From a virus: 29,741 nt of DNA. The notes beneath the pieces are model-generated. The model had not been told where the DNA came from. It saw only the letters and a list, made by a program, of their open reading frames with translations, and ran no database searches. Positions 3,001-28,998 of this stretch are shown here, piece after piece. The stretch lies in IMG/VR virus record IMGVR_UViG_3300031565_003114, positions 1 to 29,741 of that record, one strand, 5' to 3'. The first letter of the stretch is position 1. Each line of letters begins with the position of its first letter. The position numbers and the translations under genes are program-made.

Positions 3001-3734
3001 TGATTCTTATATACGCCGACCTTAGCCGACTCTGCCATTTGTCTTTCTACTTCCGCAGCCTTTAAGCTAAACACTCTCCTATCCCACATAAATCTTAACG
3101 GGACAAAAGCGGCGCCGAAAGCAGTACCAATTATAAAGTCAGTGCCATCATATTCATCCATGAAAGCATGGCCATTGAACATACCTACAAAGGCGGCTTC
3201 AAAGGCTGCCCCCTCCATGAATCCTTCTTTTAGCGCGCCTCCTGCCCAGGCTCTCCTGGCTCTCTTGTATTCTTTGGTATAGAAGTCGCCACCCTTAACC
3301 AGACTAAGTGCCTGGTCAGCCCGTAATTGCTTATTAGCAGCGAGCTTATTAATTCTACTCCCAACTAACTTACCACCAGTAAGAAGGGAATACTTACCTG
3401 CTCTAGCTAACTGTAAACTCTTACCTACTAATCCGCCAGGGATAATTAATCCGGCCACAAAGGAACCTACATTAACTAATGTCCTGTGGTTCTCGTAAAA
3501 GTTAGAGGCGTCCTTAAATCCCGCACTGGATAAAACTTCTGCTGTGTCTAGATTAATATCAGCAAAGGGAATAGAATTAGCTATAGACACAGCCGTGTCC
3601 GTAACGATGGCTATTGGGGCGTCGATAATATCATCTAGTTCAAAGCCAGATTGATTCTTATCCGACAGTCCATTCCAATACTGCTCTTCCAGGTAAGAGA
3701 TATCCGAGCCAGTAAGCGGATTAGGAAGTGCCAT
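1..3734 (-). CDS. Giant internal virion (ejection-type) protein, C-terminus beyond window edge
   Basis: An open frame runs without a stop from ATG at 3734 to the left edge, giving at least 1244 residues. The start is preceded by GAGG 8 nt upstream and lies 4 nt after the stop of the 577-aa gene. Residues about 85-115 and 165-215 are Gly/Ala-rich and hydrophobic, as in phage proteins that are ejected and cross membranes. Residues about 556-666 carry, in order, an L-H-G-T motif, G-x-G-S-G-V-G-Y, L-K-A-R-G-F-V-G and A-V-E-F-F, an arrangement that resembles the ADP-ribosyltransferase fold. The rest is mostly charged and helical. Its place at the end of the late operon, after two helical virion proteins, matches T7 gp16-type core proteins or other giant ejected proteins (N4 virion RNA polymerase sits in a similar place). 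I saw no polymerase motifs in the part present. The structural role is inferred from context. Confidence 0.75.
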   Translation of the reverse strand, partial: MALPNPLTGSDISYLEEQYWNGLSDKNQSGFELDDIIDAPIAIVTDTAVSIANSIPFADINLDTAEVLSSAGFKDASNFYENHRTLVNVGSFVAGLIIPGGLVGKSLQLARAGKYSLLTGGKLVGSRINKLAANKQLRADQALSLVKGGDFYTKEYKRARRAWAGGALKEGFMEGAAFEAAFVGMFNGHAFMDEYDGTDFIIGTAFGAAFVPLRFMWDRRVFSLKAAEVERQMAESAKVGVYKNHLGITGAKGDQLTARVHNSVSMDEEIRGMDWSDNRGGFELAQRNQREELAAANDLAIGMLDDEAKSAAKKISRPGAIAAEETDIYKQGPVGLILQVIKKNMASINGVKQAKFFNTAAPLGRAHRTISDISYEMVDDFRLRGSADFAVEEFKGGSIDSVNRILTGKRIDPNQVFAKPGELSPLQSSIDAAAPGDWRALTTGKTKAFYDDNVGTLRVVNHGNKKFELHIDNDGIRSDGALVKDGSKTNLAIREFLWGVQKEFGNEVNLDIFIHHTSKKPSNISTLGARYNARRGLSPEVGQFQTDSMPKSITQDMLHGTRSPSPNQIFLPTQRLEGQGVGSGVGYRDMLDMPDGHGSFAVAELPAGTRIASHHDLRQLLPEADAAGINILDPADAKLIEFLKARGFVGREIPNAAKRRSKAPAVEFFPTAGVKVKRRLPADIKEAAAAQRNAHGISPDFDEFAVMDPYSQAIIPASVARSIQRAADLEDGYRVNKNFSMQGQTKKEYDPFTMSTAEVDSMFMDALHAVRNQKPKSVVIDFDDLPRLQAAYLGNLSRSAVKLRLGDGSIQILRHPQELADQVFQAKAIWSRRLQESGYGMEQASVYTNTPISGVEMMVTSGHRIQDITSQGVDIGKDFFTYTTTEKGRLAEYLNAKQMVLDGDPLVNQNLRRNQQWSKQDAQLAIDMHNAIVGEVSAQGASAVPLIGELYNLVDRSEFRAMIKHASAFFSREVLGNPTINSMDFALRKLDQLPDGEALGQFVVQTGQDFLRHVNETITPIRTSLAGNFNAIAKDEAALIQFNDIYKALQKIPKEQQQLLVYSPNHKSFVMGTDKLGRPTNFLKYVRDGKFADETITINNPDLEAFFVDSWPKVQELLYNMQNTNRKLAGIGPLNRLGVWFPYNNLSEQNVAYIFNRGDSFDKARLIVGKTTEELESQIKAIQGELAPGQEIVRRADAEMWNRITGYSQLNDLERADAGLQRSGILVEGTPSDTRIMNDILEAV

Positions 3735-16351: not shown

Positions 16352-17141
16352 TGTGGGGTAAACCTCCATACTTTTTATTTAGATAGTTACGTATCTGGGC
16401 TCTTCCATTATAACCTAATGCTATATCCCAGATTATTCCTTCTGTTTGTTTACCTGTGGATAGCCCACCGAATCCTATTTGTTCTGCTGCTGGAGTGGGT
16501 ACATATGGAGTATTACCTGTAATTGGTGTATTTCCATTGACTTCCACAGTATAATCTCCTGTTATACTGTGGGTGACTATCATATAACTCCACTGAAAAG
16601 GAACTGTAGGAATCCCAGTATCTACGAATAAGGCAGCTGCAAGATCCCCATATCCCCAATTAGGTGGAAAGCTGAATAACCCACTTGTATCATCTACCAG
16701 AAGTTTAGCCGAGATATCCCCTAATCCAAAAAGAATACTAGAGGTTGCCCCTGATCTGTAACCTACAGAAGCTATGGTAATTCCCTCAGCCCCCGAAGGT
16801 ACACTTAATACTCCGAATAGAGCTGATAGTGCAGGATCTGCTTCCGTGTCTACTGCGGGAAGTCCATTAATTTGGTTCTTTCTCCATATCATGGGAGTAA
16901 CCTGAAAAGCATCATCAATTAGGTTATCTCCGGCATAGCCCAGATCATCTATTCTTTTTACTGCGCCTGCCTCTGTTACAGGTATAGTTCCTCCGGCATC
17001 AAGCCAAACAGAAGAACGATTAGTAACATCATATCTATGTTGAATATTTAGGAGCAAAGGTAGTTTAGCTCTCCTAGCTCCGGCTGATACAGAATTAATC
17101 CCAGCGACATTAATAACTGAGGGGCTAAAAGGATTACTCAT
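16344..17141 (-). CDS. LamG-like virion surface protein, paralogue 1
   Basis: The product is 265 residues. It resembles the next gene downstream in overall plan: the same N-terminal M-x-N-P...G-I-x-x-V-x-A-G-x-R-R-K, a Y-D-V-T-N-R-S-S-V-W-L-D-A-G-G-T-I-P-V-T segment near residues 37-56, and a final amphipathic helix ending N-K-K-Y-G-G. The 'W-x-D-x-x-G-T-x-P-V-T' pattern is a hallmark of many phage LamG or concanavalin A-like tail and surface proteins. It starts 6 nt after the adaptor-like gene ends and overlaps the downstream paralogue by 8 bases. The pair looks like a tandem duplication followed by divergence. Carbohydrate binding or particle decoration is inferred from the fold resemblance. 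Confidence 0.6.
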   Translation of the reverse strand: MSNPFSPSVINVAGINSVSAGARRAKLPLLLNIQHRYDVTNRSSVWLDAGGTIPVTEAGAVKRIDDLGYAGDNLIDDAFQVTPMIWRKNQINGLPAVDTEADPALSALFGVLSVPSGAEGITIASVGYRSGATSSILFGLGDISAKLLVDDTSGLFSFPPNWGYGDLAAALFVDTGIPTVPFQWSYMIVTHSITGDYTVEVNGNTPITGNTPYVPTPAAEQIGFGGLSTGKQTEGIIWDIALGYNGRAQIRNYLNKKYGGLPHNA

Positions 17142-17147
17142 TATCTA

Positions 17148-17789
17148 TTATCTCCCGGTGCCTACGTAGGCGTCTACATCACGGAGCATATCTTCGATAA
17201 AGACAGATAGTTGGGTCTGCGCTAAAGCAGCTAGACCGGCTGTTCTATCTCTATCACCTAAACTAGCCATTAAGAACTGCCCTGCCCAATCAATAACTAA
17301 ATCCGGCATAAGCTCTGTAATCCAATTAGTATCATCTGGGGAGACCATACGAGGAGGATATTGATAGTACCCCCAGATTACTTTCTCCCCGCCTATTTCT
17401 TGTCTCAGGATAAGATTAGCACCAGACGTGTAATAGGCATTTCTAATATCCCTGCCTTCACGTCTAGTTGATCTGGGGTCTACGCGATTGTAGACTAATC
17501 CGTTAGTTATCCTGCTCTCTAGGAGCCCAGTCGTCGGGCTAATCGAGGATAGGTCTCGCTCTATATAAGCAGGCTTACGAAATCTTCCTGGCAAAGCCAA
17601 GGTTTGTACATTGGTGGTAGTTTTGAAGTCTGGGTGATCTGATAGAAGTTCTTCTACCAGATCACGCCAGTAAGTTCCTGATAGACTAATTGTCCTAACA
17701 ACCGAATTAATCTTCTGCCTGGCCAGATCTTCCTTGTCTGGCCGGACAGTCATCGCTGCAACTTCGTCTATCAATTCGCCTAGGTTCAT
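17148..17789 (-). CDS. Head-tail adaptor/connector-like protein (213 aa)
   Basis: The product is 213 residues. The N-terminus reads M-N-L-G-E-L-I-D-E-V-A...V-R-P-D-K...I-N-S-V-V-R-T-I-S, then a Y-W-R-D-L-V-E-E, a pattern common in podovirus adaptor proteins (T7 gp11 / P22 gp4-type helical bundle that sits under the portal). A middle part with strands (about 60-140) and a C-terminal helical pair (about 155-205) fit the same plan, and T7 gp11 is 196 aa. It is encoded in the late operon between the capsid genes and the tail genes, 6 nt after the 222-aa gene. The connector role is inferred from motif resemblance, size and position. Confidence 0.55.
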   Translation of the reverse strand: MNLGELIDEVAAMTVRPDKEDLARQKINSVVRTISLSGTYWRDLVEELLSDHPDFKTTTNVQTLALPGRFRKPAYIERDLSSISPTTGLLESRITNGLVYNRVDPRSTRREGRDIRNAYYTSGANLILRQEIGGEKVIWGYYQYPPRMVSPDDTNWITELMPDLVIDWAGQFLMASLGDRDRTAGLAALAQTQLSVFIEDMLRDVDAYVGTGR

Positions 17790-17795
17790 GGCTTA

Positions 17796-18464
17796 TTATT
17801 TCCCTCTACGTAGGAGATCTAAGGCACTAACCTTTACCGGCGGCTGTTGGGGACTGCTCGGCTGGCTGCTGTCATCCCCGTCTCCAGATTCACCGCCGAT
17901 GGCTGGCCCACTGATGGGCTGTTCTGGGTTGGACGAACCTTCTCTTCCTGCCCCGCTCCTATCTGTGTCTGCCGTAGGCTCTTCCCGTCGTTGGGATTTC
18001 GGCTGGTCTTGTAGTTTGGGCTGGTTAATACTGACGCTGCCTCTCTGGCTGCGTTCGTGTTCTGCTGGTACTTCTGGCCTTGTCCCGGCATCGCTAGGAT
18101 CCTCCTGTAGCTCCAGATAGTCGATATGATTCCCATCGACGAAGTGCTGGAGAAAACTCATAACGGATCTATTGTCAGTCTTATATAGACCCTTGATAAA
18201 GTTGATGGACTTTCCTGCTGCATCAACTGTGTTAAATACCCCGCTAAGGGCATAATAGACACGGGTTCCTTTCCTGTCTTGCATAGAAAACATTTGCTGC
18301 GCTCTATCCGCCAGAGTAATGGTAGGCATTTCCTGCATTGCCATACTTTGGTGTGAGCTGCTACCAACTCGTCTAGCTGAATTGGCTGTAGTTTTCACCC
18401 CCGCTGCTATCTTACCAGCTAGCGGGTGGTTACTTGAGAAGGGACTTCTTGGGTCATTAGCCAT
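17796..18464 (-). CDS. Protein of unknown function with disordered Pro/Ser/Gln-rich tail (222 aa)
   Basis: The product is 222 residues. The first 125 residues are folded in character, with a mixed helix region (about 55-115: M-F-S-M-Q-D-R-K...S-F-L-Q-H-F-V-D). The rest, from about 125 to 210, is Pro, Ser, Gln, Glu and Gly-rich and surely disordered. The last residues (V-K-V-S-A-L-D-L-L-R-R-G-K) look like a short docking helix. The gene is the first after the major capsid protein and the hairpin terminator and lies just before the adaptor-like gene. A head completion or head-tail joining role is plausible from position only. An overlapping 100-codon frame (17834-18136) on the same strand is taken as a chance product of the low-complexity region. 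Confidence 0.55.
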   Translation of the reverse strand: MANDPRSPFSSNHPLAGKIAAGVKTTANSARRVGSSSHQSMAMQEMPTITLADRAQQMFSMQDRKGTRVYYALSGVFNTVDAAGKSINFIKGLYKTDNRSVMSFLQHFVDGNHIDYLELQEDPSDAGTRPEVPAEHERSQRGSVSINQPKLQDQPKSQRREEPTADTDRSGAGREGSSNPEQPISGPAIGGESGDGDDSSQPSSPQQPPVKVSALDLLRRGK

Positions 18465-18507
18465 GATAGAATACTCCTGATAGGTTGATTTAAGGTTTAG
18501 ATTAGAA

Positions 18508-18539
18508 CTCCGGGTAGAACATCCCTAGTCTACCCGGAG
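18508..18539 (-). terminator. Terminator-like hairpin after the major capsid gene
   Basis: A perfect 11-bp inverted repeat, CTCCGGGTAGA at 18508-18518 and TCTACCCGGAG at 18529-18539, has a 10-nt loop. It lies 39 nt beyond the capsid gene's stop in the 113-nt gap before the 222-aa gene. On the minus strand the stem is followed by TTCTAATC, a poor U-tract, so it more likely attenuates or protects the 3' end of the capsid message than stops all transcription. That would leave the capsid gene more strongly expressed than the tail genes. Confidence 0.7.
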
Positions 18540-18577
18540 GTGGTTATAGCTTTCTATCCTTTAAGCTACTCGTCTAC

Positions 18578-19807
18578 TTACGGAACGGCTACGCCTGCGG
18601 TAAGTCCGTTGATTACTCCCATAGCACAGGGATTACGGAACTCAGTAGCAAACTCGGAAGTTAAGCTACCGCCTTGGGCGTCGATGCCATTGTCACCAGG
18701 ATTCAGCCTGTTCTGGCCAAACTCTTCCTTCTTAACATCGCGGCCGTTCATGTAGGCTAACCGCATTGAAGGAAGCTCGACCGTAACAGCCAGTCCGGGA
18801 GTGATAGACAGACCATTGAAGAGCGGGTGCTCCACAATGAACAGCATACCCTTGTACAGCCTGAAAGCCGTAAAGTGCATACCGAAGGTAGTAGTCCGCA
18901 GGTCCATGATAACCTGCTCGCTCTTTCTGCCAATCTCGTTAAGTACCCGGTTAGCCTGTGCGTCTACGAACATGACACGTTCTTTCGTATTACCCAGGTT
19001 ACTGGAAGCTGCGAAATAGGGCTCCACGAATCCTACGAGCTGGTCGTAGTTTGTGGTCGCAGCGGCTGTGGCGACGTTAGCTGGCGCATACTGGATAATC
19101 GCGTCGATGATACCCTGAGTAGTATGCGTAGGAGGACTACCGAATGGAGCCTGTGGCTGACCCCAGAATAGCACAGACTCGATATCCGTGGCATGGAGCA
19201 TCATCGCGTCTTGACGACTCTCCTGGATATTGTTGAATCCTGCTTCGGCCAGACTAGCACGCGCAGTATCCGAGATAGCCCAGCTATTACGGATGATCTG
19301 GGTGAAGTTAGGCACGTACAGGACTTCCATAGTCCGTGCGGTAGGACGATTGCTAGCCTGCTCATGGCTATTACCGACTGCGAATAGGACTTCAGAAGCT
19401 ACGATGGCAGCTGCGGCGACTGAGCCGTAACCTCTCGTAACTGTGATATCCGTCGCGTTCGGAACAGTCAGAACACGGATTAGCTCACGCGAGGACGGAA
19501 CCTGGAATACCATACCAGGAACTATGCCTAGAGTAGACAGTCCCTCGATAGTAGTATCACCGGCTAATGCTCCTGAACCGTCGTCTGTGAAGCTACTAAA
19601 TGCCATAGCTTTGGTGTGGTACCCATGCTCCACAGCCTTAGCCTGCATCTTTGGCAGCTGGCCTGTCATCGCAAACAACGGTGCAGTACCATCCGGGAAT
19701 AGGCGTAGGATAGTATCTGCAAACGACCGCTGGTTGAGAGTGGCAGGATTGAAGGAAGCAAAGAAGATACCCGTTGGGTTAAAGGTACCTTGGTTAAAAG
19801 TGGACAT
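18578..19807 (-). CDS. Major capsid protein (DUF5309/SU10-type HK97 fold)
   Basis: The product is 409 residues. Residues 164-190 (Y-V-P-N-F-T-Q-I-I-R-N-S-W...D-T-A-R-A-S-L-A-E-A-G) carry the 'N-x-T-Q-I-f' signature of the DUF5309/SU10-type major capsid family. A strand region before it ends in I-T-V-T-R-G-Y-G-S, also typical. The size matches N4- and SU10-type capsid proteins of about 400 aa. It follows the scaffold-like gene, sharing one base of stop and start (TAATG), and is followed by a strong hairpin. Codon use is visibly more GC-rich than in the neighbouring tail genes, as expected for a highly expressed gene. It would form the icosahedral shell with HK97 fold. This is one of the best-supported calls in the window. 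Confidence 0.85.
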   Translation of the reverse strand: MSTFNQGTFNPTGIFFASFNPATLNQRSFADTILRLFPDGTAPLFAMTGQLPKMQAKAVEHGYHTKAMAFSSFTDDGSGALAGDTTIEGLSTLGIVPGMVFQVPSSRELIRVLTVPNATDITVTRGYGSVAAAAIVASEVLFAVGNSHEQASNRPTARTMEVLYVPNFTQIIRNSWAISDTARASLAEAGFNNIQESRQDAMMLHATDIESVLFWGQPQAPFGSPPTHTTQGIIDAIIQYAPANVATAAATTNYDQLVGFVEPYFAASSNLGNTKERVMFVDAQANRVLNEIGRKSEQVIMDLRTTTFGMHFTAFRLYKGMLFIVEHPLFNGLSITPGLAVTVELPSMRLAYMNGRDVKKEEFGQNRLNPGDNGIDAQGGSLTSEFATEFRNPCAMGVINGLTAGVAVP

Positions 19808-20616
19808 TACTGATCTCCTGATTCTCCACTGGTAGGATCAGCTCCACCGGGATTGTTTACCGAGTCTCCCATAGCGAAGCCCATCCAGTCTACATCTCCC
19901 CCAGGAGTCGGCTTGTTGCCTGGCTCTCCGGGACCTGGGTTAGAGCCTGCGTCGCCGCCACTGAGTAACTTAGCAGACTGTAAGAAGTAATTAGTAGCCT
20001 GTTCAGTAACCCATTTAGGATCAGCGTCTGGCTGAGACCTCTGAAGTCTTTCAGCCATCATGCTAATCCCGGCTTTGAGTACAGGAGATTTGTTGATTAT
20101 TTCGTTTGCAGAGAGGTTAGATCTGACTTGATGAGCGTTTATCTTTTCGCCTAGGCTTTTCTCGAATCTACCTAGTCTATCTTCCAAGATCTTTTCAGAT
20201 AGAGTAGAAGAATGAGATATAGCAGTCTGATAGGAACCTTTGGCTATCTCATTGAATGCTGTGAATAGAGCTTTAGAAGTAGTCTCTGGATTAGCCAGAG
20301 CTTCACGAGTCTCATCAGTAAGATAGCTATTGAAGTCTAGATTCTCTGTCAGTTTAGCAATAGTATCTGGTGTAAGCACAGAGGCTACAGACAGCGGAAC
20401 ATCCTTTGGGTCAGGAGTTCCAGGAGCCTTATTATCGAACATGGCGGCAAAAGCCGCAAGGGGGTCAACGGACACCGGATCTTTCTCCGGTTCCTTAACC
20501 TTTGGCTTACCTGTAGCCGGATCGATATTAGGATCTGGATTAGGTTTAGGATCATCATCCTTACCCTCAATTCCGATACCGGGGAATAATCTTCTGAGTG
20601 CATCTAGTCCGGCCAT
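19807..20616 (-). CDS. Capsid scaffolding protein (269 aa)
   Basis: The product is 269 residues, acidic, and without aromatic-rich or membrane segments. The N-terminal 50 residues are Asp/Pro/Lys-rich and disordered. The middle (about 85-215) is helical and likely coiled coil (E-K-I-L-E-D-R-L-G-R-F-E-K-S-L-G-E-K-I). The C-terminus is Gly/Pro/Asp-rich. An acidic, helical, low-complexity protein encoded immediately before the major capsid gene is the standard scaffold signature. It would guide procapsid assembly and leave before or during packaging. Both junctions share one base (TAATG). The call is from composition and position, and scaffold sequences rarely match one another. Confidence 0.7.
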   Translation of the reverse strand: MAGLDALRRLFPGIGIEGKDDDPKPNPDPNIDPATGKPKVKEPEKDPVSVDPLAAFAAMFDNKAPGTPDPKDVPLSVASVLTPDTIAKLTENLDFNSYLTDETREALANPETTSKALFTAFNEIAKGSYQTAISHSSTLSEKILEDRLGRFEKSLGEKINAHQVRSNLSANEIINKSPVLKAGISMMAERLQRSQPDADPKWVTEQATNYFLQSAKLLSGGDAGSNPGPGEPGNKPTPGGDVDWMGFAMGDSVNNPGGADPTSGESGDQ

Positions 20617-20897
20617 TAGCTTTCTCCTGGTAGATTAATAGATTGTAGAAGTGTGGCGGCTAAGTCCATTATACCTTTTAGATAAGCCTCTTCTAAGGCT
20701 ATAGTACGATCAATATCCAAGCCCTTAGCCTGTAGCGTAGATAACGGAGTCATCAGATGTTCCGTGATATAATTAGCACGAGCAGTCTGAATAAATGCCT
20801 TAACTATCTTATTGTCTAAGGCGGCTTTTATTACTACAAGTTCTTCTAGATCGAACGTGTAGCCTATTAAATCTTCTTTAGCCTGTCGGGGCTGCAC
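20616..20897 (-). CDS. Small helical protein between portal and scaffold (93 aa)
   Basis: The product is 93 residues, almost entirely helical in prediction by eye, with alternating hydrophobic Leu/Ile/Ala spacing (L-E-E-L-V-V-I-K-A-A-L and L-K-G-I-M-D-L-A-A-T-L-L). It has no Cys, Trp or membrane segment. It overlaps the end of the portal gene by 20 bases and shares one base with the scaffold gene start. Its position suggests a head assembly helper or a portal-associated protein. The family is not recognised. Confidence 0.6.
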   Translation of the reverse strand: MQPRQAKEDLIGYTFDLEELVVIKAALDNKIVKAFIQTARANYITEHLMTPLSTLQAKGLDIDRTIALEEAYLKGIMDLAATLLQSINLPGES

Positions 20898-22827
20898 TGG
20901 CGGCTCCTGGGGCGGCAGCAGCTTCTATCTGTGCTTGCTGTTGCCGCTGTTGTTCTGGTGGAACTTGAAACCTATCCAGTCCACGCATACCAGATAAAGC
21001 CATCATGTGAGAGAATAGGGGGCCTACCTGATACTGAGACTGGAGAAGCGGGGATTGAATAAGCAGATTGAAAGCTGCTTGGACTACTTCCGTATTAGCT
21101 AACAGACTGGTAGGCAGATAACCGTCCGCCACCTTAAAGTTCATTAACTTAGTACGGATATCTTCTACATTAACAGAGATAGCTCGCTGAGAACGATTAG
21201 AGATTAAATCTTGAGGGGAAGATCCCATGTTGAGTAGGATATTACCCTTGATCTGTTGCTTTAGAGGAGTAAAAATCTGATACTCCATCATAAGAGCGAT
21301 CATACGACTACGCATATCGCTGTTAGTCATAATCTCTGAAAACTCACCAAGGGTTCTGTTACCCCGCTTAAACCCTCCCTGCCTAGCGGAGTTTATACCG
21401 CCAAGGAATTCTGATAGCTGTAACAGGGGACTTATATCATCAAAGGCTCTAGCTGTGCCAGTATCATTAAATTCGATAGACCTATAAGCCTGATTAAGAT
21501 CAGCGTTCTTCAGATTCTGTTTAATTGGTATCTTGGCGGCAGGGGTTCGGCTATTGACATCCTGGGGGTCTATTAGACTAGGATTGTAAATAGCACGGTC
21601 TGAGATAGAGCGACGGGCTGAGTTAAGTCGGATATTAACTAACTCACTTGTGGCGTCCTGAATGGAAAGCTGTTGTTCTGCTACTGATTTAGTTTGCGCT
21701 CTGAAGCCATCTTCTGTGAACTGTCCTAGCTGAATCGGGAACATATCAAAGGCTGAGATAACCTTTTTCATATGTATGATAAAGCTGTTATTAACAGATA
21801 CAAACTTCCATATCTGGGGGACATTAGGCTCTGGAACGTCTAGCCCATGGTCAGCAGGAATAATACGGGCATAGGATTTGGTATACAGATACTTGTTGGA
21901 ATAGTCTATCCGGTCTTTATTATCTGGCTGTGCTAGTGCCCAAGCTAGCCAGTTAGTAGCCATATTGGGATCTTCAATTATATTGAAGTTAGAGATTAAG
22001 GGGCGTTCAATATAATGCTCCCGTGGAACACCATCGTTGCTAGCTCCCTGGGCGGACTCTAAAGCCTGACGAACATTCATAGTATTCTCACCAGCTTTGG
22101 TAAGATTACTGATATACTGTTTAATTCGCCCCCTAGTCCACAGATCGTTATAGCCTACATAATCTCCGAATTCTGTAACATCCGGGATATCCACAAGTTG
22201 GTCCCAAAACATGTTATACATATCCATGTTCCAGAGACGATTAATCTGTTCTACGTCTAGGGTAGGCTGACTAGGACTTCCTACTTGCTGATTGTTTTTA
22301 TTTACTTTAAGAGCACCAATAGGAGCCCATTCTAATTCTACTCCGCAGACGTTATACTTTGCGCCATCACGGAAAGTCATATTAAGCTGTCTAGGCCAAC
22401 GACCGCGGATACTATGGTCGTCTACAATAGCCTCTAACTGTTCACCAAATAGCGTATCCTCTGGTGGAGTAACCACAGGGAAAATAGGATAACCGCTAAG
22501 ATACAACTCGCTGAGAAAAGCAACAATAGAATCAACCTGGCTGACAACAACAGGAGTGGTGAAGTGTACTCCTGAGTCATCAATAATCTGGGCAACCTGC
22601 TCATCAGCTTTGTTCTGGTCCTTAGTTAATGTATAGCAGGCATAGGCCCTATCAATAACCTTAATCTTGTCCCGCCATAACTCATTGCGTTGATGGATAC
22701 GCTGAAACTCCTTAATTAGCTGAATCAGGGAGTCGTGGGTAGATCTAGAGATTGGGATAGGAGTAGCAACTCCTGGTATCTCAATCTCAACTCTTTGCTT
22801 TACTGTACCCTGTCTGAGTGCCGGCAT
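20878..22827 (-). CDS. Portal protein (649 aa)
   Basis: The product is 649 residues from ATG 22827. An upstream in-frame GTG at 22845 would add six residues, but it has no ribosome-binding site. The ATG has GGGAGA about 10 nt upstream and follows the TerL stop by 1 nt. The protein has a helical N-terminus, a strand-rich central part including F-H-T/V-V-S-Q-V-D-S-I-V-A-F-L, a D-G-A-K-Y-N-V-C-G-V-E-L-E-W segment (about 145-165) and a long C-terminal helical and Gln/Ala-rich tail. These features, the size and the position right after TerL match podovirus and N4-like portals that form the dodecameric DNA channel. No other protein in the head block fits the role. Confidence 0.75.
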   Translation of the reverse strand: MPALRQGTVKQRVEIEIPGVATPIPISRSTHDSLIQLIKEFQRIHQRNELWRDKIKVIDRAYACYTLTKDQNKADEQVAQIIDDSGVHFTTPVVVSQVDSIVAFLSELYLSGYPIFPVVTPPEDTLFGEQLEAIVDDHSIRGRWPRQLNMTFRDGAKYNVCGVELEWAPIGALKVNKNNQQVGSPSQPTLDVEQINRLWNMDMYNMFWDQLVDIPDVTEFGDYVGYNDLWTRGRIKQYISNLTKAGENTMNVRQALESAQGASNDGVPREHYIERPLISNFNIIEDPNMATNWLAWALAQPDNKDRIDYSNKYLYTKSYARIIPADHGLDVPEPNVPQIWKFVSVNNSFIIHMKKVISAFDMFPIQLGQFTEDGFRAQTKSVAEQQLSIQDATSELVNIRLNSARRSISDRAIYNPSLIDPQDVNSRTPAAKIPIKQNLKNADLNQAYRSIEFNDTGTARAFDDISPLLQLSEFLGGINSARQGGFKRGNRTLGEFSEIMTNSDMRSRMIALMMEYQIFTPLKQQIKGNILLNMGSSPQDLISNRSQRAISVNVEDIRTKLMNFKVADGYLPTSLLANTEVVQAAFNLLIQSPLLQSQYQVGPLFSHMMALSGMRGLDRFQVPPEQQRQQQAQIEAAAAPGAASAAPTG

Positions 22828-22828
22828 T

Positions 22829-24352
22829 TTAGTGCATTCTCCCACTATAGTGTGTGGCGGTATCCATAGGTGTATTCATTGATACTACCCTAGCTTTTAT
22901 TGACCTATCTATACTAGGAGTAATACCAAACTGATACTCTAACTCATCCCTGTGCTTATTCAGCATATAGTCACCAAATGCACAGCCGTCTAGGATATCG
23001 TCCTGATTATCTTTCTTGCCAGCACGATATTGAATTCCTTGATAGAGAACTAGAGCACGATCAACAGAACGAAGGATAGGATAATTACCACCTAATACAT
23101 TACCCACCCAGGCTCTTATCCTGCTATGCTTTGCGGCGATCCCAGGTTTGATTTCCAAAACTGTAATAGAATCGTCAAGATGATACATCTGTAAGTATAG
23201 TTCTATCCAGAATTTAAGAGTTTGCTGATAAGCTACAGATTCTACTCCTATGTGAGTGCAGGAGTTATCTATAGCACAGTCTATTGCCTCTAATATGGTA
23301 GTCTCTGGATCCCATTTGCCAGCACGAATCTCAGCTACCATGGGAGTGTCGTCTACTATCTTATGACAGGCTACGACATTATCATCCGAATCTTTTCTAA
23401 AACCCGCAGGATCAATGGTAATATAGCTTGCCTGTATCTCAAGCTCCGCATCTTCAGCATACGGGCAATCTGGTATTCTACCGTCGGGGAATAGACTTTG
23501 GGTAACAGACTGCGGGTCATTCATTATCTCCGCAAACCAGATATCAGCTTTACCTAGAGAAGCATCATGCTCATACTCTTCTAGGAGATTCTTTAGTGGA
23601 TGTAGCTCTTCCCACAAGGCTGTACCATCGGCCAGAATGGCACCGGTGATAAGGCTAGTCCACATCCTGTTACTTTGCAGCTGCTTAAGTATGCACTGTT
23701 CGCTGTACATATTCCCGATGTAAAAAACAAAGCAATGCTTAGGGTCCCGGGATTTAAGTAGCGTTGACAGGATCCACCGCAACAGTCTGTCTCTTTCGGC
23801 AGGGGACTCGTCATTCTCTTTAGTCTGGACATCATCCAATAGAATAAATCCCGGTCTCCTATTTCGGATGTTGATTCCACGTAATGCAGTGCCAGCTCCA
23901 ACTGCTGCAAGAATAATCTCTCTTCCAAGGAAGTTACGGATCTTAACCTCTCTGGTGTCTCGTTCAACAGCTGTAGGACCGTTCCAATCTCCAAAGAGTT
24001 TTCGGATATTATCTGATCCAAGGATACCGTTAATGTCATCTAATATATCCTGTGCTCTATCCTCTGACGAACCAACTATAAGCACGAAATCAAATAGACC
24101 AAATAGGATACCATAAGCTACTAATAGTTTACTAAATGTTGTCTTAGCATGGCCTCGGGGTAGACCAAGGGCGAATCGGAAGATACTATGTAGGGTATCC
24201 CTGACGGATATAATCTGAGCAAGAAGGAAGAACCAGATCTCTCCATAGAATACCGGTAGGTCGTTATCATGGACCTGTGGTATAGCAACACGGCTAAAGA
24301 AGTTAAGATCTGTTTTACAGCTCTCAATAGCCTGCTCTCTGGTTACTTCCAT
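22829..24352 (-). CDS. terL: Terminase large subunit (packaging ATPase-nuclease)
   Basis: The product is 507 residues. The ATPase domain has a Walker A-like L-P-R-G-H-A-K-T-T at 64-72 and Walker B F-I-L-L-D-D-V-Q at 169-176. The nuclease domain begins about residue 307 with Y-I-T-I-D-P-A-G (Asp314), then G-V-E-S (Glu371) and N-Q-D-D-I-L-D (Asp452/455), matching the RNase H-like Asp-Glu-Asp layout of T4 gp17 and relatives. It packages DNA into the prohead and cuts the concatemer. It starts at ATG 24352, 9 nt after the stop of the 71-aa gene, with no clear ribosome-binding site, so coupling is likely. The key ATPase and nuclease residues appear intact. Confidence 0.9.
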   Translation of the reverse strand: MEVTREQAIESCKTDLNFFSRVAIPQVHDNDLPVFYGEIWFFLLAQIISVRDTLHSIFRFALGLPRGHAKTTFSKLLVAYGILFGLFDFVLIVGSSEDRAQDILDDINGILGSDNIRKLFGDWNGPTAVERDTREVKIRNFLGREIILAAVGAGTALRGINIRNRRPGFILLDDVQTKENDESPAERDRLLRWILSTLLKSRDPKHCFVFYIGNMYSEQCILKQLQSNRMWTSLITGAILADGTALWEELHPLKNLLEEYEHDASLGKADIWFAEIMNDPQSVTQSLFPDGRIPDCPYAEDAELEIQASYITIDPAGFRKDSDDNVVACHKIVDDTPMVAEIRAGKWDPETTILEAIDCAIDNSCTHIGVESVAYQQTLKFWIELYLQMYHLDDSITVLEIKPGIAAKHSRIRAWVGNVLGGNYPILRSVDRALVLYQGIQYRAGKKDNQDDILDGCAFGDYMLNKHRDELEYQFGITPSIDRSIKARVVSMNTPMDTATHYSGRMH

Positions 24353-24361
24353 AAGAGACTA

Positions 24362-24577
24362 TTAGAAGCCTAGCTTTTGCAGCTCTCGGCTAATGTTACT
24401 GCGCTGTCTCTCTTCCTGGCGCTGACCGAGAGGAAACTTCTGCCCACCGTCTCCGATAGTAGCGACAGCCTGCTCAGAGGCAATCGGTACAAGCGTACTC
24501 GTATTCGGGCTCTGGGGTAGCATTCCGGCCATGCCGTTCTGCTGCTCGTTGCTCATTGGGATCTTTGGCTGCGGCAT
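24362..24577 (-). CDS. Small overlapping protein between terminase subunits (71 aa)
   Basis: The product is 71 residues, polar, rich in Gln, Pro, Ser and Gly, with a helical basic C-terminus (Q-R-Q-E-E-R-Q-R-S-N-I-S-R-E-L-Q-K-L-G-F). The gene starts inside the 3' end of the small terminase candidate in another frame and overlaps it by 104 bases. A strong AAAGGAG lies about 7 nt before the ATG at 24577. It ends 9 nt before the TerL start and fills the only gap between the terminase genes. The strong start site and fit in the operon argue that it is real. A link between terminase subunits or a packaging accessory protein is possible. Confidence 0.6.
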   Translation of the reverse strand: MPQPKIPMSNEQQNGMAGMLPQSPNTSTLVPIASEQAVATIGDGGQKFPLGQRQEERQRSNISRELQKLGF

Positions 24578-25064
24578 TCCTTCTCTCCTTTACTGCTTCT
24601 AACACGCGCTTAGCCGGCATAGGAGCCATACTCCTGCCAGCGATTTCGATAATCTCGTTGTTACCTGTCCTAGTAATAGAGACCGCTACTGGGGCGTCCC
24701 CTAGGTTAAGGTTAATAGTCCCCGGCACTTCGGCGCCTGCCCCATGGCCTGCGCTCCTAGTCAGTGCTTGAATCTGTTTAATCAGCTGCAAGCTCTTCAC
24801 TGACTCTATCAGACTGTCACTCATGTCAATCTGAGCTTTAATCTTCTCCAGTAGGTCAGCCTCAATAGTCTCCTCACTGACTTTATTATTATGCTGACGT
24901 ACAGCGATATCAGTAGCCTTAGTCTGTATCAAGGCTTGAACCTTGGCGTCCTCTCGAACTAGGTTAGCTATATATTGGGGAGTGACACCAAAGGCATCCC
25001 CTATCTGTGAATGGGGGATACCGTAGGCTACTAATTCTGCTACTGCTTCTTTGTTAACGGACAT
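24474..25064 (-). CDS. Terminase small subunit candidate (196 aa)
   Basis: The product is 196 residues. The N-terminal 45 residues form a helix-turn-helix-like unit (A-Y-G-I-P-H-S-Q-I-G-D-A-F-G-V-T-P-Q-Y-I-A-N-L-V), as in many small terminase subunits that bind the packaging site. A helical middle (about 65-105) could oligomerise. A strand part and a basic stretch (about 150-180) follow. Start ATG 25064 has AGGA 7 nt upstream. It is the first gene of the late block, directly before the 71-aa gene and TerL, which is the usual place for TerS. TerS proteins diverge strongly, so the name rests on HTH, size and position. Confidence 0.65.
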   Translation of the reverse strand: MSVNKEAVAELVAYGIPHSQIGDAFGVTPQYIANLVREDAKVQALIQTKATDIAVRQHNNKVSEETIEADLLEKIKAQIDMSDSLIESVKSLQLIKQIQALTRSAGHGAGAEVPGTINLNLGDAPVAVSITRTGNNEIIEIAGRSMAPMPAKRVLEAVKERRNAAAKDPNEQRAAERHGRNATPEPEYEYACTDCL

Positions 25065-25109
25065 AGGTATATCCTGGCTAGATGAGTTCGCTGCCTGTTA
25101 TTCAGTCAT

Positions 25110-25118
25110 AGTATAACA
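25110..25118 (-). promoter_or_regulatory. Extended -10 promoter for the late block
   Basis: On the minus strand TGTTATACT gives an extended -10 (TGn plus TATACT, 5 of 6 match to TATAAT) about 46 nt before the small terminase start. No good -35 is seen at 16-18 nt, as allowed for extended -10 promoters. Around 25144-25175 are two small inverted repeats (ACCCG/CGGGT and TATCCT/AGGATA), possible binding sites. No other promoter candidate of similar quality was seen for the head genes. The region 25065-25250 holds no gene. Confidence 0.45.
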
Positions 25119-25253
25119 GATTCTCTTGATGTGATTCGGGCATACCCGGAATGCGGGTCGTATCCTATTAGGATATCACTAGCTAGGTATTCTAAAACTA
25201 TTTGTAATATTTTTTGTGTGCTGGCTATTGATAGGAACCCAGGAGGACAGCCT

Positions 25254-25288
25254 AAAAAGGCCCCCACACCCCCTACGAGCAGGGCCTT
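25254..25288 (-). terminator. Leftward terminator candidate before the late promoter
   Basis: The inverted repeat AAGGCCC (25257-25263) and GGGCCTT (25282-25288) has an 18-nt loop. Read leftwards it is followed by a T-run (TTTTTA). It lies upstream of the late promoter and would end leftward transcripts from the 88-aa gene. The stem is 7 bp and the loop is long, so termination strength is uncertain. Confidence 0.5.
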
Positions 25289-25773
25289 ACAGCCTTTAGA
25301 GTAATGATGGCCACCTGTTGTCCCCCGGCTAGGCTATTGTGTCTCGCTCTTCTCTTCTCTTTCTGATGGTGGTCGTAGTCTAGTAGCCTATAGTAACACA
25401 CTGTAGGCTAGTGTAGCTAACCCCGCCGACCGCAAGCGAAGCGCGCAGTGATTGGAACAATCACGTAGAGTGAGATGATAGCACAGCGAACGCAGGAGAA
25501 CAGTGCGTAGAGACCTACTGGTCTCGTAGCACCTGTAGGCAGCGCAGCTGCTGTTCGACTAAGAGAGTGAAGCTGTAGCCGAAGGCTACTCCTTGGAGTC
25601 TTATCTTTCCGAGCGCAGGATGCCACAGTTAGTGGCATTAAGCGGCCAAGCGATAGCGCAGGCTAGAATAATAGCCGTTAGGCTATTCATCACTACGCGC
25701 CGCCAGGCGCAATCTTAGCCTAGCGCAGCGCCCGGCTGTAAGCTGGTAAGGCACATCCTTGTGCCGAAGTCTA

Positions 25774-26040
25774 TTACATTGCAGCGGCTCTCATCCGCTC
25801 CAGGTTATTCTTCATCTTCTGCCAGTTGCGGCAAGACCTAGCCGACTTCTCCATCTTAACTTTGTGCTTGCGCGTCAAGTTAGGCCAAGCGCCTCCCAAC
25901 TGGCAGTGGGCTCGGCATATGATGTACAGATTGCGATAACGATAGAAAGCAGTACGAGCCTTCAGATATTCCGCCATGATTTCACTGGCAGGAATGAATC
26001 GGGCTGCTGTGTCAACAAAGCCTAAGTTGATTTTAGTCAT
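25774..26040 (-). CDS. Small basic protein inside the hairpin island (88 aa)
   Basis: The product is 88 residues, basic and helical, with a Y-R-Y-R-N-L-Y-I-I-C-R-A-H-C segment (Cys42, His45, Cys46) and a further Cys70, so it could bind a metal. The C-terminal third is Lys/Arg/Met-rich. GAGG lies 8 nt before the ATG at 26040, and a near-consensus leftward promoter lies about 120 nt upstream. Codon use differs from the structural genes: CGC/CGT and CTG are used, with almost no CTA. That fits a gene of separate origin. The opposite-strand frame covering the same bases has no start signal and is rejected. A nucleic acid-binding role is possible, but the family is not recognised. Confidence 0.5.
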   Translation of the reverse strand: MTKINLGFVDTAARFIPASEIMAEYLKARTAFYRYRNLYIICRAHCQLGGAWPNLTRKHKVKMEKSARSCRNWQKMKNNLERMRAAAM

Positions 26041-26058
26041 GAACGTGTCCTCAATTAA

Positions 26059-26121
26059 CCCGAGAGCTTATTCTCTTGGGCGTATCAGTCTAGTAGCAAT
26101 GACAGCAGTCTGGCGCTGTCA
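26059..26121 (-). promoter_or_regulatory. Two inverted repeats in the leader of the 88-aa gene
   Basis: TGACAGC (26100-26106) pairs with GCTGTCA (26115-26121), and CCCGAGAG (26059-26066) pairs with CTCTTGGG (26073-26080) with one G-T pair. Both lie between the promoter at 26158-26186 and the gene start at 26040, so they would be in the transcript leader. The first also overlaps a perfect TTGACA on the minus strand (26122-26117) that has no good -10. They may be operators or leader hairpins. Confidence 0.45.
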
Positions 26122-26157
26122 AGATTGAACGAGACAATATCAGACTAGATAGACCTT

Positions 26158-26186
26158 AGTATAGCCGAGGATACCAGTAGAGTCAA
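26158..26186 (-). promoter_or_regulatory. Near-consensus sigma-70 promoter, leftward
   Basis: On the minus strand TTGACT (26186-26181), exactly 17 nt, then TATACT (26163-26158). Each hexamer matches 5 of 6 consensus bases at the ideal spacing. Transcription would start near 26151 and give the 88-aa gene a leader of about 110 nt with two hairpins. It is the best sigma-70 promoter found in the window, consistent with recognition by unmodified host polymerase early in infection. Confidence 0.65.
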
Positions 26187-26587
26187 GCAATCTTTACAGT
26201 GACAGATGCCCAGACGCTTTAGCGTCGTAGCATCATTGCTAGACTTAGAATAGCCCGAGAGAGATTATTATAACCGCTGAATAGCGGTGCCGAAGGCATA
26301 ATTAGATTCTTATCTTCTCTTTACCTTGCTGCCGCAGGCCCAAGAGGAATAGCGTAGCTAAGCGTAGCTATGTATCTTGTAGTCTACGCGAGCCTGCCGA
26401 GCACCGATAGCGAATTTGGGAGATTAGTTCCCAGGTCCACAGGAGTAACGGACGGAATCAGGATAACCAGCGTAGGCTATCAGATAATTAATGTCAGCGT
26501 AGGCTGACTCATTTTATCTTTCCCTGTCGAGCCGAAGGCGAGACAAATTTTTTTCCTATTCCTCCCTGGTAGGCTACCGGCAAAGAA

Positions 26588-26621
26588 AAACCCCGGTAGA
26601 AAGTTAATCCTACCGGGGTTT
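26588..26621 (-). terminator. Strong intrinsic terminator after the 213-aa gene
   Basis: A perfect 12-bp inverted repeat, AAACCCCGGTAG (26588-26599) and CTACCGGGGTTT (26610-26621), has a 10-nt loop. Leftward it runs into TTTTTCTTTG, a good U-tract. It lies about 43 nt after the stop of the 213-aa gene and isolates that gene from the hairpin island. The short T-run on the other side makes it partly bidirectional. Confidence 0.85.
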
Positions 26622-26664
26622 AATAAGCTAGGATGGGTTCCTAGCGGATTTAGGCCATTGCAGC

Positions 26665-27306
26665 CTAAAAGTCGTCAGCCTCAGCCTGTTCGGATTCGGC
26701 CGAGGTGATAACCTTAGTTAAGACTGCATCGTAGCGGTCTCGGTTATCCTGGGAAAGTGCCTCGATATAAGGTGAGAGATAGTTTTCGAGGAAAGTCTCC
26801 CGCGTTTTAACAGGCGAAACATCAAGCGCCGCTGGGTCACTGAATAGCTTTTTAGCCATATCCATAGCCTTTTGGCTCTTATCCAGCGTAGTCAGCCAGT
26901 TGCCAAAGTCAGCGATAGCCTCATGGCGAATTTTAAGATACTCGCCACCCTGCCGCTTATGTTCCTCGCACAGTTGGGCAAAGTTCTCCGGGATTGGGCG
27001 AGTAAACTCTAGCTTGTAGCCGCTCTTGGAATCCTTGTCCTCGACTACCTTAGTAACGTTCCTAGCCTCACGCTTGACCGCATCAAGGATAGCATCCTGT
27101 GCCCATTGCAGCCGCTCATCATCGTATAGCGGCTCCTTGCTGCCGTCTTCATCCTCCTGAAACTTGTCAGGAAGCGACAACTTAGCGTCGATATCGTGGA
27201 GCGTAGGATATGGAACCTCCACGCTATCCACGTCTACACGCTTTTTGTCGATGGTAGTCCGTATCATTAGGACTAGGTTATAGTCGAATTTCTCTGTCTC
27301 AGTCAT
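26665..27306 (-). CDS. Acidic protein of unknown function with SSB-like C-terminal tail (213 aa)
   Basis: The product is 213 residues and acidic overall. The N-terminal 35 residues are strand-like (Y-N-L-V-L-M-I-R-T-T-I-D), then mostly charged helix, and the C-terminus is S-A-E-S-E-Q-A-E-A-D-D-F. An acidic tail ending in Phe is the hallmark of bacterial SSB and of T7 gp2.5, where it recruits replication partners. An OB-fold cannot be confirmed by eye, so this is a suggestion. The gene stands alone, with AGGAG 9 nt before the ATG, its own promoter block at 27384-27415 and a strong terminator behind it, so it is regulated apart from the late block. Codon use is more GC-rich than in the tail genes, which fits high expression. 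Confidence 0.75.
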   Translation of the reverse strand: MTETEKFDYNLVLMIRTTIDKKRVDVDSVEVPYPTLHDIDAKLSLPDKFQEDEDGSKEPLYDDERLQWAQDAILDAVKREARNVTKVVEDKDSKSGYKLEFTRPIPENFAQLCEEHKRQGGEYLKIRHEAIADFGNWLTTLDKSQKAMDMAKKLFSDPAALDVSPVKTRETFLENYLSPYIEALSQDNRDRYDAVLTKVITSAESEQAEADDF

Positions 27307-27383
27307 GGCTAGAATCTCCTATTAGATTAGCCTGGGTTTGAAATAACATCCTGTTCTCGTTTCCCGTCCCTGGGAGTGTGACC

Positions 27384-27415
27384 AAAGTACAGGAAATCGC
27401 GCCATGCGTCAAGTG
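27384..27415 (-). promoter_or_regulatory. Leftward promoter with shared CACTTGAC-N6-CGCGATTTC block
   Basis: On the minus strand CACTTGAC (27415-27408), 6 nt, CGCGATTTC (27401-27393), then CTGTACTTT. It holds a -35 TTGACG and a weak -10 TACTTT at 17 nt. The transcript would start near 27377 and lead to the 213-aa gene at 27306. The same block occurs in the rightward promoter at 27874-27906. The conserved bases in the spacer are not needed by sigma-70, so they may bind a regulator. Confidence 0.55.
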
Positions 27416-27473
27416 ATAATTTTCAGCCGTAATCTATAACAGGGTTCCTATCCTAGCCTAGCAGTCTAGCCTA

Positions 27474-27509
27474 GAACTAAACTAGTATCCCGGAATTAAA
27501 CTAGTATCC
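27474..27509. repeat. Tandem 17-bp repeat with 19-bp period
   Basis: GAACTAAACTAGTATCC (27474-27490) and GAATTAAACTAGTATCC (27493-27509) match at 16 of 17 positions. Their period of 19 bp is close to two helical turns, and each holds the palindrome ACTAGT. Just before them CTAGCCTAG occurs twice (27453-27461, 27466-27474). They lie in the gene-free 27307-27954 region and look like operators or iteron-like sites. Nearby CCTAGC/GCTAGG (27545-27563) is a further small inverted repeat. Confidence 0.6.
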
Positions 27510-27673
27510 TGCTTTTGAGACCCTAATCTATTACTATCTTAAATCCTAGCCCGCCAAGCTAGGTGCTTACTGCAACGGAAAGATAGCATAAAGGCCAGAC
27601 TAAAATTTCGACCCCGGAATCCCGATATTCACGATTTTACCCCCGTTCCCCTCCTAACCCCGACGGTTCAGCC

Positions 27674-27713
27674 AAGTATCCTACGGAGTCTTATTAGACT
27701 ATCTGGGATACTT
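27674..27713. promoter_or_regulatory. Nested hairpin in the divergent control region
   Basis: AAGTATCC (27674-27681) pairs with GGATACTT (27706-27713). Inside it AGTCT (27687-27691) pairs with AGACT (27696-27700) around a TATT loop, leaving symmetric 5-nt internal loops. A T-run (27724-27728) lies 10 nt to the right, too far for a classic terminator. It stands between the two divergent promoters and could be an operator, an origin-associated structure or a weak terminator. Confidence 0.45.
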
Positions 27714-27873
27714 CTTAAAGTGTATTTTTCAAAGCCGGGTCAAAATAAGACATCAATCATAGTCTATAGGATATGACATGCTCACCAGGATGACAGGATA
27801 GGGCCGATTTCATGGGATATCAGGATTTCGGGACCAAAACGCTCGCAAGTCGTTGAAAAATAAGGACTTTTAG

Positions 27874-27906
27874 CACTTGACTGATACCGCGATTTCATGG
27901 TATTCT
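27874..27906 (+). promoter_or_regulatory. Rightward early promoter with shared CACTTGAC-N6-CGCGATTTC block
   Basis: CACTTGAC (27874-27881), 6 nt, CGCGATTTC (27888-27896), then ATGGTATTCT. It contains -35 TTGACT and an extended -10 TGG-TATTCT at 18 nt. Transcription would start near 27913, about 42 nt before the 347-aa gene. CGATTTCATGG is also found at 27805-27815, 85 bp upstream, perhaps a third, degenerate site. Confidence 0.6.
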
Positions 27907-27954
27907 AATTCTTACTACCGGGCAAGTTATAGGCTATTCTAGGAGTATATTCTA

Positions 27955-28998
27955 ATGACCACTAATAGGTTATCCAAGCCGCTAGGCTTATCAAAGGTCT
28001 ATTGTGCTGTCAGTGGCGTTAAATTCTATATCGCTGATAGCATAGGACTACAATACGTAGCAGAGATTAATAAGTGTCATCCTGCTATGTTAGATTCTGA
28101 TACCATGCGAACTATCCTCAAATATGAGTCTAATCGTAACTTGAAGCCGGAGGCTTTACATACGTTAGACTGGCAGGATATCAGCCTAGGAGTTGAAAGT
28201 GATTTTGACGTTCCTAAAGAGAATCAGATACTAGCTAAATCCTATATTGTCGGAGTAATCTTCGCACAGTTACGGGATAAGAAGCTAGCATTTAGCAGAT
28301 TACCTGGCCGCAAGTTACATGAGCTTAATATAGCTCTCTGTAAGCACAGGCGCCGGAATCAGCTCCTATGGTGGGCACGTAGACTATGTACCTGGGATAA
28401 ATCTCGTCGGGCTGACAAGATAAATCTCGATACAGTCTACGAGGCTAATCAGGGGCAGAAATACCAGACTAATAGTTGGTCAGATTCTATTGGAGCTTAT
28501 CTTACTTCGATAATCGAGGATGATAGTTCCATGCTTCCTAGACTGAGAGGCAAGGCTCAAGCATCTGTTACAATCTATGATAGGGAAATAGCCGCTAGAG
28601 CCAGACAAAGAAGAGCAGACAAGCCTCTTAATGGTCAACACGTAGACTGGGGTATTGATAAGGCTATTAATTGCGTAGCTACTCTAAAAGCTACTGGGAT
28701 AGTTACTAAGAAACAAGCTATGAACATAACAATGGCTCTCAACCATTGGGCTGACTATCCAGTAGAAACTAGGGAGAAGCTAGGCCACAGACTGATAGAG
28801 CTTTCTTCCTGTGCCCAGCTTAAACAGGACTATTCTACAGTTCTGGAGCGAATAGGTTACGGGTTCGTAACAGGCGAGATTAGCTCAATAGCCAATACTA
28901 GCAAATATACCCTGGGCGAAACCTTCCTAGGAGACCGTATTGAAAAGCCTAAGCGCGAGCGTCCTAGCTTGCTGCTAAAGTTACGGGCTAGAGGATAA
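27955..28998 (+). CDS. Protein of unknown function, first gene of the rightward operon (347 aa)
   Basis: The product is 347 residues, basic overall, with no membrane segment. Residues about 115-160 are Lys/Arg/Trp-rich (K-H-R-R-R-N-Q-L-L-W-W-A-R-R-L) and may bind nucleic acid. Residues about 205-300 are helical. The C-terminus ends S-L-L-L-K-L-R-A-R-G, a motif that recurs in the gene two places downstream. AGGAG lies 8 nt before the ATG. It is the first rightward gene behind an extended -10 promoter, so it is probably made early and may take part in host takeover or replication. Codon use includes many CTA and AGG/AGA codons like the late tail genes. I do not recognise the family. Confidence 0.75.
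   Translation: MTTNRLSKPLGLSKVYCAVSGVKFYIADSIGLQYVAEINKCHPAMLDSDTMRTILKYESNRNLKPEALHTLDWQDISLGVESDFDVPKENQILAKSYIVGVIFAQLRDKKLAFSRLPGRKLHELNIALCKHRRRNQLLWWARRLCTWDKSRRADKINLDTVYEANQGQKYQTNSWSDSIGAYLTSIIEDDSSMLPRLRGKAQASVTIYDREIAARARQRRADKPLNGQHVDWGIDKAINCVATLKATGIVTKKQAMNITMALNHWADYPVETREKLGHRLIELSSCAQLKQDYSTVLERIGYGFVTGEISSIANTSKYTLGETFLGDRIEKPKRERPSLLLKLRARG

Follow-up and report, generated by a model that had tools for sequence, protein, structure and literature searches.

The 29.7-kb virus record analyzed here (29,741 nucleotides; the window) contains, between the gene for the small terminase subunit and a gene that is conserved in its family, a dense set of short DNA hairpins that differ in sequence while sharing a form. 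Distant relatives have their own versions of these hairpins at the same place and on the same strand, which suggests that the shape of the DNA, rather than its sequence, is what matters. The reading toward which we tentatively lean is that these hairpins make up an optional, cis-acting array of mini-hairpins that could be extruded from supercoiled DNA at the genome end and would be selected for shape.

Hairpins in the window

The initial annotation had described positions 25384-26545 as a single hairpin island of about 1.2 kb and had suggested a comparison with shuffled sequences. We counted perfect stems with loops of 3-8 nt in this region and in 300 dinucleotide shuffles. The region contains 18 such stems of at least 5 bp against 6.3±2.6 in the shuffles, 10 of at least 6 bp against 1.7±1.2, and 4 of at least 7 bp against 0.5±0.7; the excess is about three-fold at 5 bp and six-fold at 6 bp, and none of the 300 shuffles reached the observed count at any of the three lengths, which bears out the claimed density. 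Counted without overlaps, there are 28 stems of at least 4 bp, 17 of them of at least 5 bp. The overall excess stands, but it is confined to two arrays that flank an 88-aa ORF on the minus strand (25774-26040), where a single hairpin was found versus 1.5 in the shuffled sequences. The left array (25384-25770), with its GNA-type loops on the plus strand, has 10 perfect stems of at least 5 bp (2.5±1.6 expected; 0/300 shuffles), and the right array (26045-26545, also plus) has 7 (2.6±1.6; 3/300 shuffles). The product of the ORF, which has no family match and is 52% identical to its homologue in the related sequence L004, is predicted to be a helical hairpin. The arrays of the window and L004 are homologous overall although the right array is absent from L004 and individual hairpins have no one-to-one alignment; a one-to-one covariation between the two, read by eye, was dropped after alignment.

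Triloops of the GAA, GCA and GTA type are present as had been noted, at 25448 and in the plus-strand hairpins GCAGC(GCA)GCTGC (25539-25551), GTAGCC(GAA)GGCTAC (25575-25589), TGCC(GAA)GGCA (26288-26298) and TAGC(GTA)GCTA (26350-26360), the last with one of two adjacent AGCGTAG copies. A further GNA triloop caps GTC[GA]GCC(GAA)GGC[GA]GAC (26526-26544), which has tandem G·A in its stem and is followed by AAATTTTTTT. The loops are not all of this type, however: TACT, AGTTA, TTTA and TCAT loops also occur in the arrays, the first in GTGC[GTA]GAGACC-TACT-GGTCTC[GTA]GCAC (25503-25532, plus), with its symmetric GTA/GTA internal loop, and GTCAGC(GTAG)GCTGAC (26493-26508, plus) has a GNAB-type tetraloop. 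On recount, AGCGNAG occurs nine times on the plus strand and not at all on the minus strand of the island, and GCCGAAGGC occurs three times, both as originally reported; CGTAG, reported nine times, occurs eight times within 25384-26545, the ninth copy lying just outside, at 25374. Local folding of the left array as DNA gave z = -6.3 for the plus and -4.3 for the minus strand; local fold energy carries little weight by itself, given that terS likewise has z = -3.6 with DNA parameters, and we dropped it as proof of hairpins.

Genome context and the probable terminus

The large terminase subunit, portal and major capsid protein place the phage near Pseudomonas phages PaMx41 and 119X, Polaromonas phage Tiera and EBPR podovirus 3; PaMx41 is listed under Fredfastierviridae. 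A DNA search for close relatives among phage isolates gave no match for the window, and the genomes compared here are mostly metagenomic fragments. One metagenome record, L003, is 99.9% identical to window positions 17129-27726, with a sole difference near the island, at 26579. The structural operon runs leftward, with terL at 22829-24352 and terS at 24474-25064 (phrog_16503), both on the minus strand; 3-3734 (minus) holds the beginning of what is predicted to be a very long virion protein (about 1850 aa in relatives). On the other side of the island are an intrinsic terminator of the upstream gene, with a 14-bp stem (26588-26621, minus), and the conserved gene itself (26665-27306, minus), which was found in 13/13 relatives searched; wherever its position in a relative was inspected, the homologue lay upstream of terS.

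Between terS and the island lies an element, at 25200-25290 on the minus strand, that is conserved across the family (26 aligned rows, including Tiera and L005) and probably represents the genome terminus. In the window it consists of a G-run, GGCCTTTTT, about 22 nt, TATCAATAG and an A+T-rich part; its family form is a G-run, GGCTTTTTT, about 22 nt that are often CGCG-rich at the end, TATCAATA and an A+T tract. The linear record of Tiera terminates exactly within this element, at TATCAA|TAGG; its authors placed genome ends with PhageTerm, the text giving no result specific to Tiera (PMC9959647). By analogy with Tiera, the cut in the window would fall between 25228 and 25227. Because the Tiera record ends inside the conserved element that adjoins the island, the island is probably situated 150-1320 bp in from the right-hand end of the linear genome, a position that derives from the record of this one isolate. 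The Tiera and PaMx41 records contain no terminal repeat. The contig ends of G002 (L046 1-341 and L047 3048-3388) overlap by 341 nt with differences clustered just inside the terminus, which suggests that this spot changes fast even inside a single population.

Recurrence, strand and place in relatives

We examined 53 intergenic regions between the conserved gene and terS from the podophage family related to PaMx41 and Tiera. Perfect C(GNA)G hairpins of at least 4 bp were found 25 times on the strand opposite terL and 5 times on the terL strand, compared with 1.5±1.2 in shuffled sequences. The asymmetry is complete for hairpins with tandem G·A (18 versus 0; 0.02 shuffled) and for GNA/GNA internal loops around GNA triloops (4 versus 0; 0.04 shuffled). 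On the terL strand of the same interval, the complementary C(TNC)G is the commonest of the triloop classes (24 versus 1.5). Triloop classes counted over whole contigs, coding sequence included, showed no GNA excess; the signal is limited to the intergenic region. In nine records that were picked for having arrays, the array region has 5.9 per kb on the array strand and 0.2 on the opposite strand, versus 0.24 in the rest of the non-coding DNA and 0.13 in coding sequence (in counts, 30 and 1 hairpins on the two strands of the array and 5 in the remaining 21 kb of non-coding DNA), the statistics themselves resting on the unselected 53 regions.

The arrays are not universal. The strand opposite terL carries C(GNA)G hairpins in 17/53 regions, with clear examples in L071 (five in 130 nt), L099 (three) and L024 (five tandem-G·A hairpins), as well as in L067, L066, L072, L078, L060, L079, L092 and L004, and none of Tiera, PaMx41, EBPR podovirus 3 and L005 carries such hairpins at this place. 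Because several relatives have no array, the element is dispensable across the family and is an optional extra rather than a core requirement. A second type of GNA-hairpin cluster, at L013 3115-3640 (G006:C1:37507-38024), lies upstream of the conserved gene in the opposite orientation, beside a divergent operon. No relatives of terL were found in bacterial genomes.

The hairpin core and compensatory change

AGCGNAG turns out to be largely the core of these hairpins, namely, a GNA triloop on two pairs followed by tandem G·A or by a GNA/GNA internal loop, as in GT[GA]GC(GTA)GC[GA]AC, CGC[GA]AC(GTA)GT[GA]GCG (L004) and CCC[GAA]GC(GTA)GC[GTA]GGG. At one site with the conserved flanks TAATGCTTTTA ... 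TATCTATTCCC, the stem is GTGC/GCAC in L072, ACGC/GCGT in L078, GT[GA]AC/GT[GA]AC in L079 and GT[GA]GC/GC[GA]AC in L060, L066 and L092. Judged from about ten sequences, the stem changes at this site are compensatory, with the form kept. The earlier observation that form persists while stem sequences differ is borne out, and sequences also differ between relatives. Neither of the refuting outcomes named in the initial annotation was obtained: shuffled sequences do not reach the hairpin density, and the related phages show comparable arrays at the same place and compensatory stem changes, although several of them have no array.

DNA or RNA

Stems that are under selection in RNA normally include G-U pairs. 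Among 70 seeds that were fixed only at the loop and the two inner pairs, the third pair is Watson-Crick in 34 cases, G·A in 27 and anything else in 9, and over pairs 3 to 6, G·T and A·C are about equally rare (14 and 12). Similarly, perfect stems of at least 6 bp are strongly enriched in the arrays (48 versus 12.6 expected) whereas stems with one G·T pair are not (5 versus 4.0). The lack of G·T enrichment points to a structure in DNA rather than RNA and disfavors the structured RNA that had been offered as one option. Given that tandem G·A would read C·U on the other strand, the folding strand is the one opposite terL.

A structured non-coding RNA from this strand, or a late-operon leader RNA, is accordingly improbable in our estimation. 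In its favor, the RNA fold energy of the plus strand of the left array is also below that of shuffles (z = -5.0), and several arrays end, on the strand opposite terL, in AAATTTTT or in T runs, in a terminator-like manner. Apart from the scarcity of G·T, however, a plus-strand tandem G·A would become C·U in a late-operon RNA, the number of promoter-like sites does not exceed chance, and a search of Rfam 15 gave no match at the gathering score. A tRNA search likewise found nothing. RNA terminators with UNCG tetraloops were rejected as a general account: they fit only stems with C and G runs, such as CCCCTACGGGG, and most stems fit the triloop register only.

Discussion

The hairpin promoters of phage N4, to which the initial annotation had drawn attention, are relevant at the level of the loop. 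In N4, the hairpin has a C-G closing pair and a triloop with 5'G and 3'A that form a sheared G:A on the template strand; owing to this closing pair and triloop, the template-strand hairpin extrudes at physiological supercoiling, whereas the loop on the other strand stays reactive and that hairpin is melted by SSB (PMC4496689). The hairpins described here have the same closing pair and the same 5'G/3'A triloop, and probably lie, as do N4 P1-P3, at a genome end. A promoter function of the N4 type is not supported. The sequence that is conserved in N4 from -17 to +1 has no counterpart around these many and varied hairpins, the flanks of which differ both within the window and between phages, much as the initial annotation had argued; moreover, with the geometry of N4, transcription would run toward the terminus and terS, not toward early genes. 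No RNA polymerase was recognized by Pfam among the proteins of the window, which is a fragment; PF00940 had no match in 8 genomes, nor in the controls; a PDB sequence search with two large structural proteins of Tiera, including the homologue of the ~1850-aa virion protein, gave no polymerase match and, for that homologue, no match of any kind; and inspection of motifs revealed no virion RNA polymerase. These polymerase tests are weak and not exhaustive. Taking together the polymerase searches, the unshared flanks and the direction of transcription, we consider N4-like promoters unlikely here, and their reading by a virion RNA polymerase is the least probable of the explanations that we weighed.

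Neutral evolution provides the main rival explanation. Mini-palindromes, neutral or selfish, could originate in a spacer free of constraint and multiply there by replication errors, for example, when fold-back template switching makes stems perfect; GNA loops would then prevail as the best folders in single-stranded DNA, and the strand bias would mark the exposed strand. The rapid change of the arrays, their absence from several relatives and the mostly perfect stems all fit such a process, to which we assign a real, if lesser, probability. The motif GAGCGNAGCGA, which combines GNA with tandem G·A, is also mildly enriched in ordinary bacterial genomes (868 versus 494 for the backward control in 75 genomes of one class, that of G025), and its presence in evenly spaced arrays in Mycolicibacterium implies that it accumulates outside this phage context. 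In G029 (Mycolicibacterium), GAGCGAAGCGA repeats every ~30-36 nt in several places (e.g. C1:552036-552226), far above the backward control. Against neutral accumulation, the hairpins are about 25 times less frequent in other non-coding DNA of the same phages and, in the nine array-selected records, are not scattered over many non-coding sites on both strands in the manner of dispersed repeats. Furthermore, correction by template switching would erase tandem G·A mismatches, which are nevertheless kept while compensatory changes occur around them. Transcription terminators or insulators placed back to back at the end of the genome are improbable. In many relatives the array is flanked by T runs on both strands, among them GGCTTTTTT on the terL side and AAATTTTTT at the opposite side, and a single array hairpin, read in both directions, accounts for two of the three terminator-like sites found in 25000-28000. 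However, three such sites compare with 2.3 expected by chance, most array hairpins have no adjacent T run, short stems interrupted by G·A would make weak RNA terminators, and the asymmetry of GNA loops between strands is left unexplained.

The interpretation that we prefer, a cis-acting array selected for shape, translates into a simple model. C(GNA)G, GNAB and GNNA loops, which fold unusually stably in DNA, are borne, some of them on stems with tandem sheared G·A, by the strand opposite the terminase genes (plus in the window). Under this model, the array would occupy the right-hand end of the linear phage genome, adjoining the packaging terminus. Negative supercoiling of a circular or concatemeric form, or a single-stranded state, should cause extrusion on that strand only, as would be expected because the loops obey the N4 rule on one strand. 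The hairpins would then have a cis-acting role at this end, whether in processing of the terminus, in replicating the concatemer junction or in packaging; the place of the array is what suggests such a role to us. A more specific version, which we advance with more reserve, is that in this podophage lineage the packaging-end array, with its GNA loops and tandem sheared G·A, extrudes on one strand under supercoiling and is read as a set of single-strand structures by a phage or host protein, thus providing a shape signal that does without sequence conservation.

Should this model hold, the conserved signal at a phage genome end would be a secondary structure of DNA rather than a sequence, and the hairpin principle of N4 would extend to phages with no recognized N4-type polymerase. 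The arrays would also form a comparative set, with covariation, for determining when short hairpins extrude in living cells. The pattern YGA-xC-GNA-Gx'-GAR, which exceeds its control in many bacterial genomes too, would serve as a simple search term for elements structured at the level of DNA rather than RNA.

Several classes of DNA loops are stable in vitro, including d(GCGAAGC) mini-hairpins, cGNNAg and cGNABg tetraloops, tandem G·A and GNA/GNA motifs; these classes of loop and of mismatched stem appear here too, but as an array that recurs at a fixed genomic place rather than as chemical motifs. Small palindromic repeats of bacteria and organelles, such as REP, cyanobacterial repeats and GC clusters, are likewise short palindromes in spacers that vary in sequence and keep their form; unlike the present hairpins, which are found at one place and on one strand, they are genome-wide and occur in either orientation. 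In T7, a DNA hairpin at the concatemer junction is proposed to help make the genome ends (cited in PMC4281155), and offers a precedent for a hairpin at such a junction. T7, however, duplicates a terminal repeat, whereas the Tiera record has none and the hairpins here are many and small; a T7-like maturation hairpin at a terminal repeat was rejected given the Tiera and PaMx41 records. N4 differs in having three promoters with a conserved sequence from -17 to +1 and its own 3500-aa polymerase, compared here with arrays whose hairpins are diverse, stems with tandem G·A, no recognized polymerase and an orientation toward the genome end. What is shared with N4 P1-P3 is the small DNA hairpin at a genome end, with a C-G closing pair and a G..A triloop, in which the loop of one strand is the stable one and the stems may vary as long as pairing is kept.
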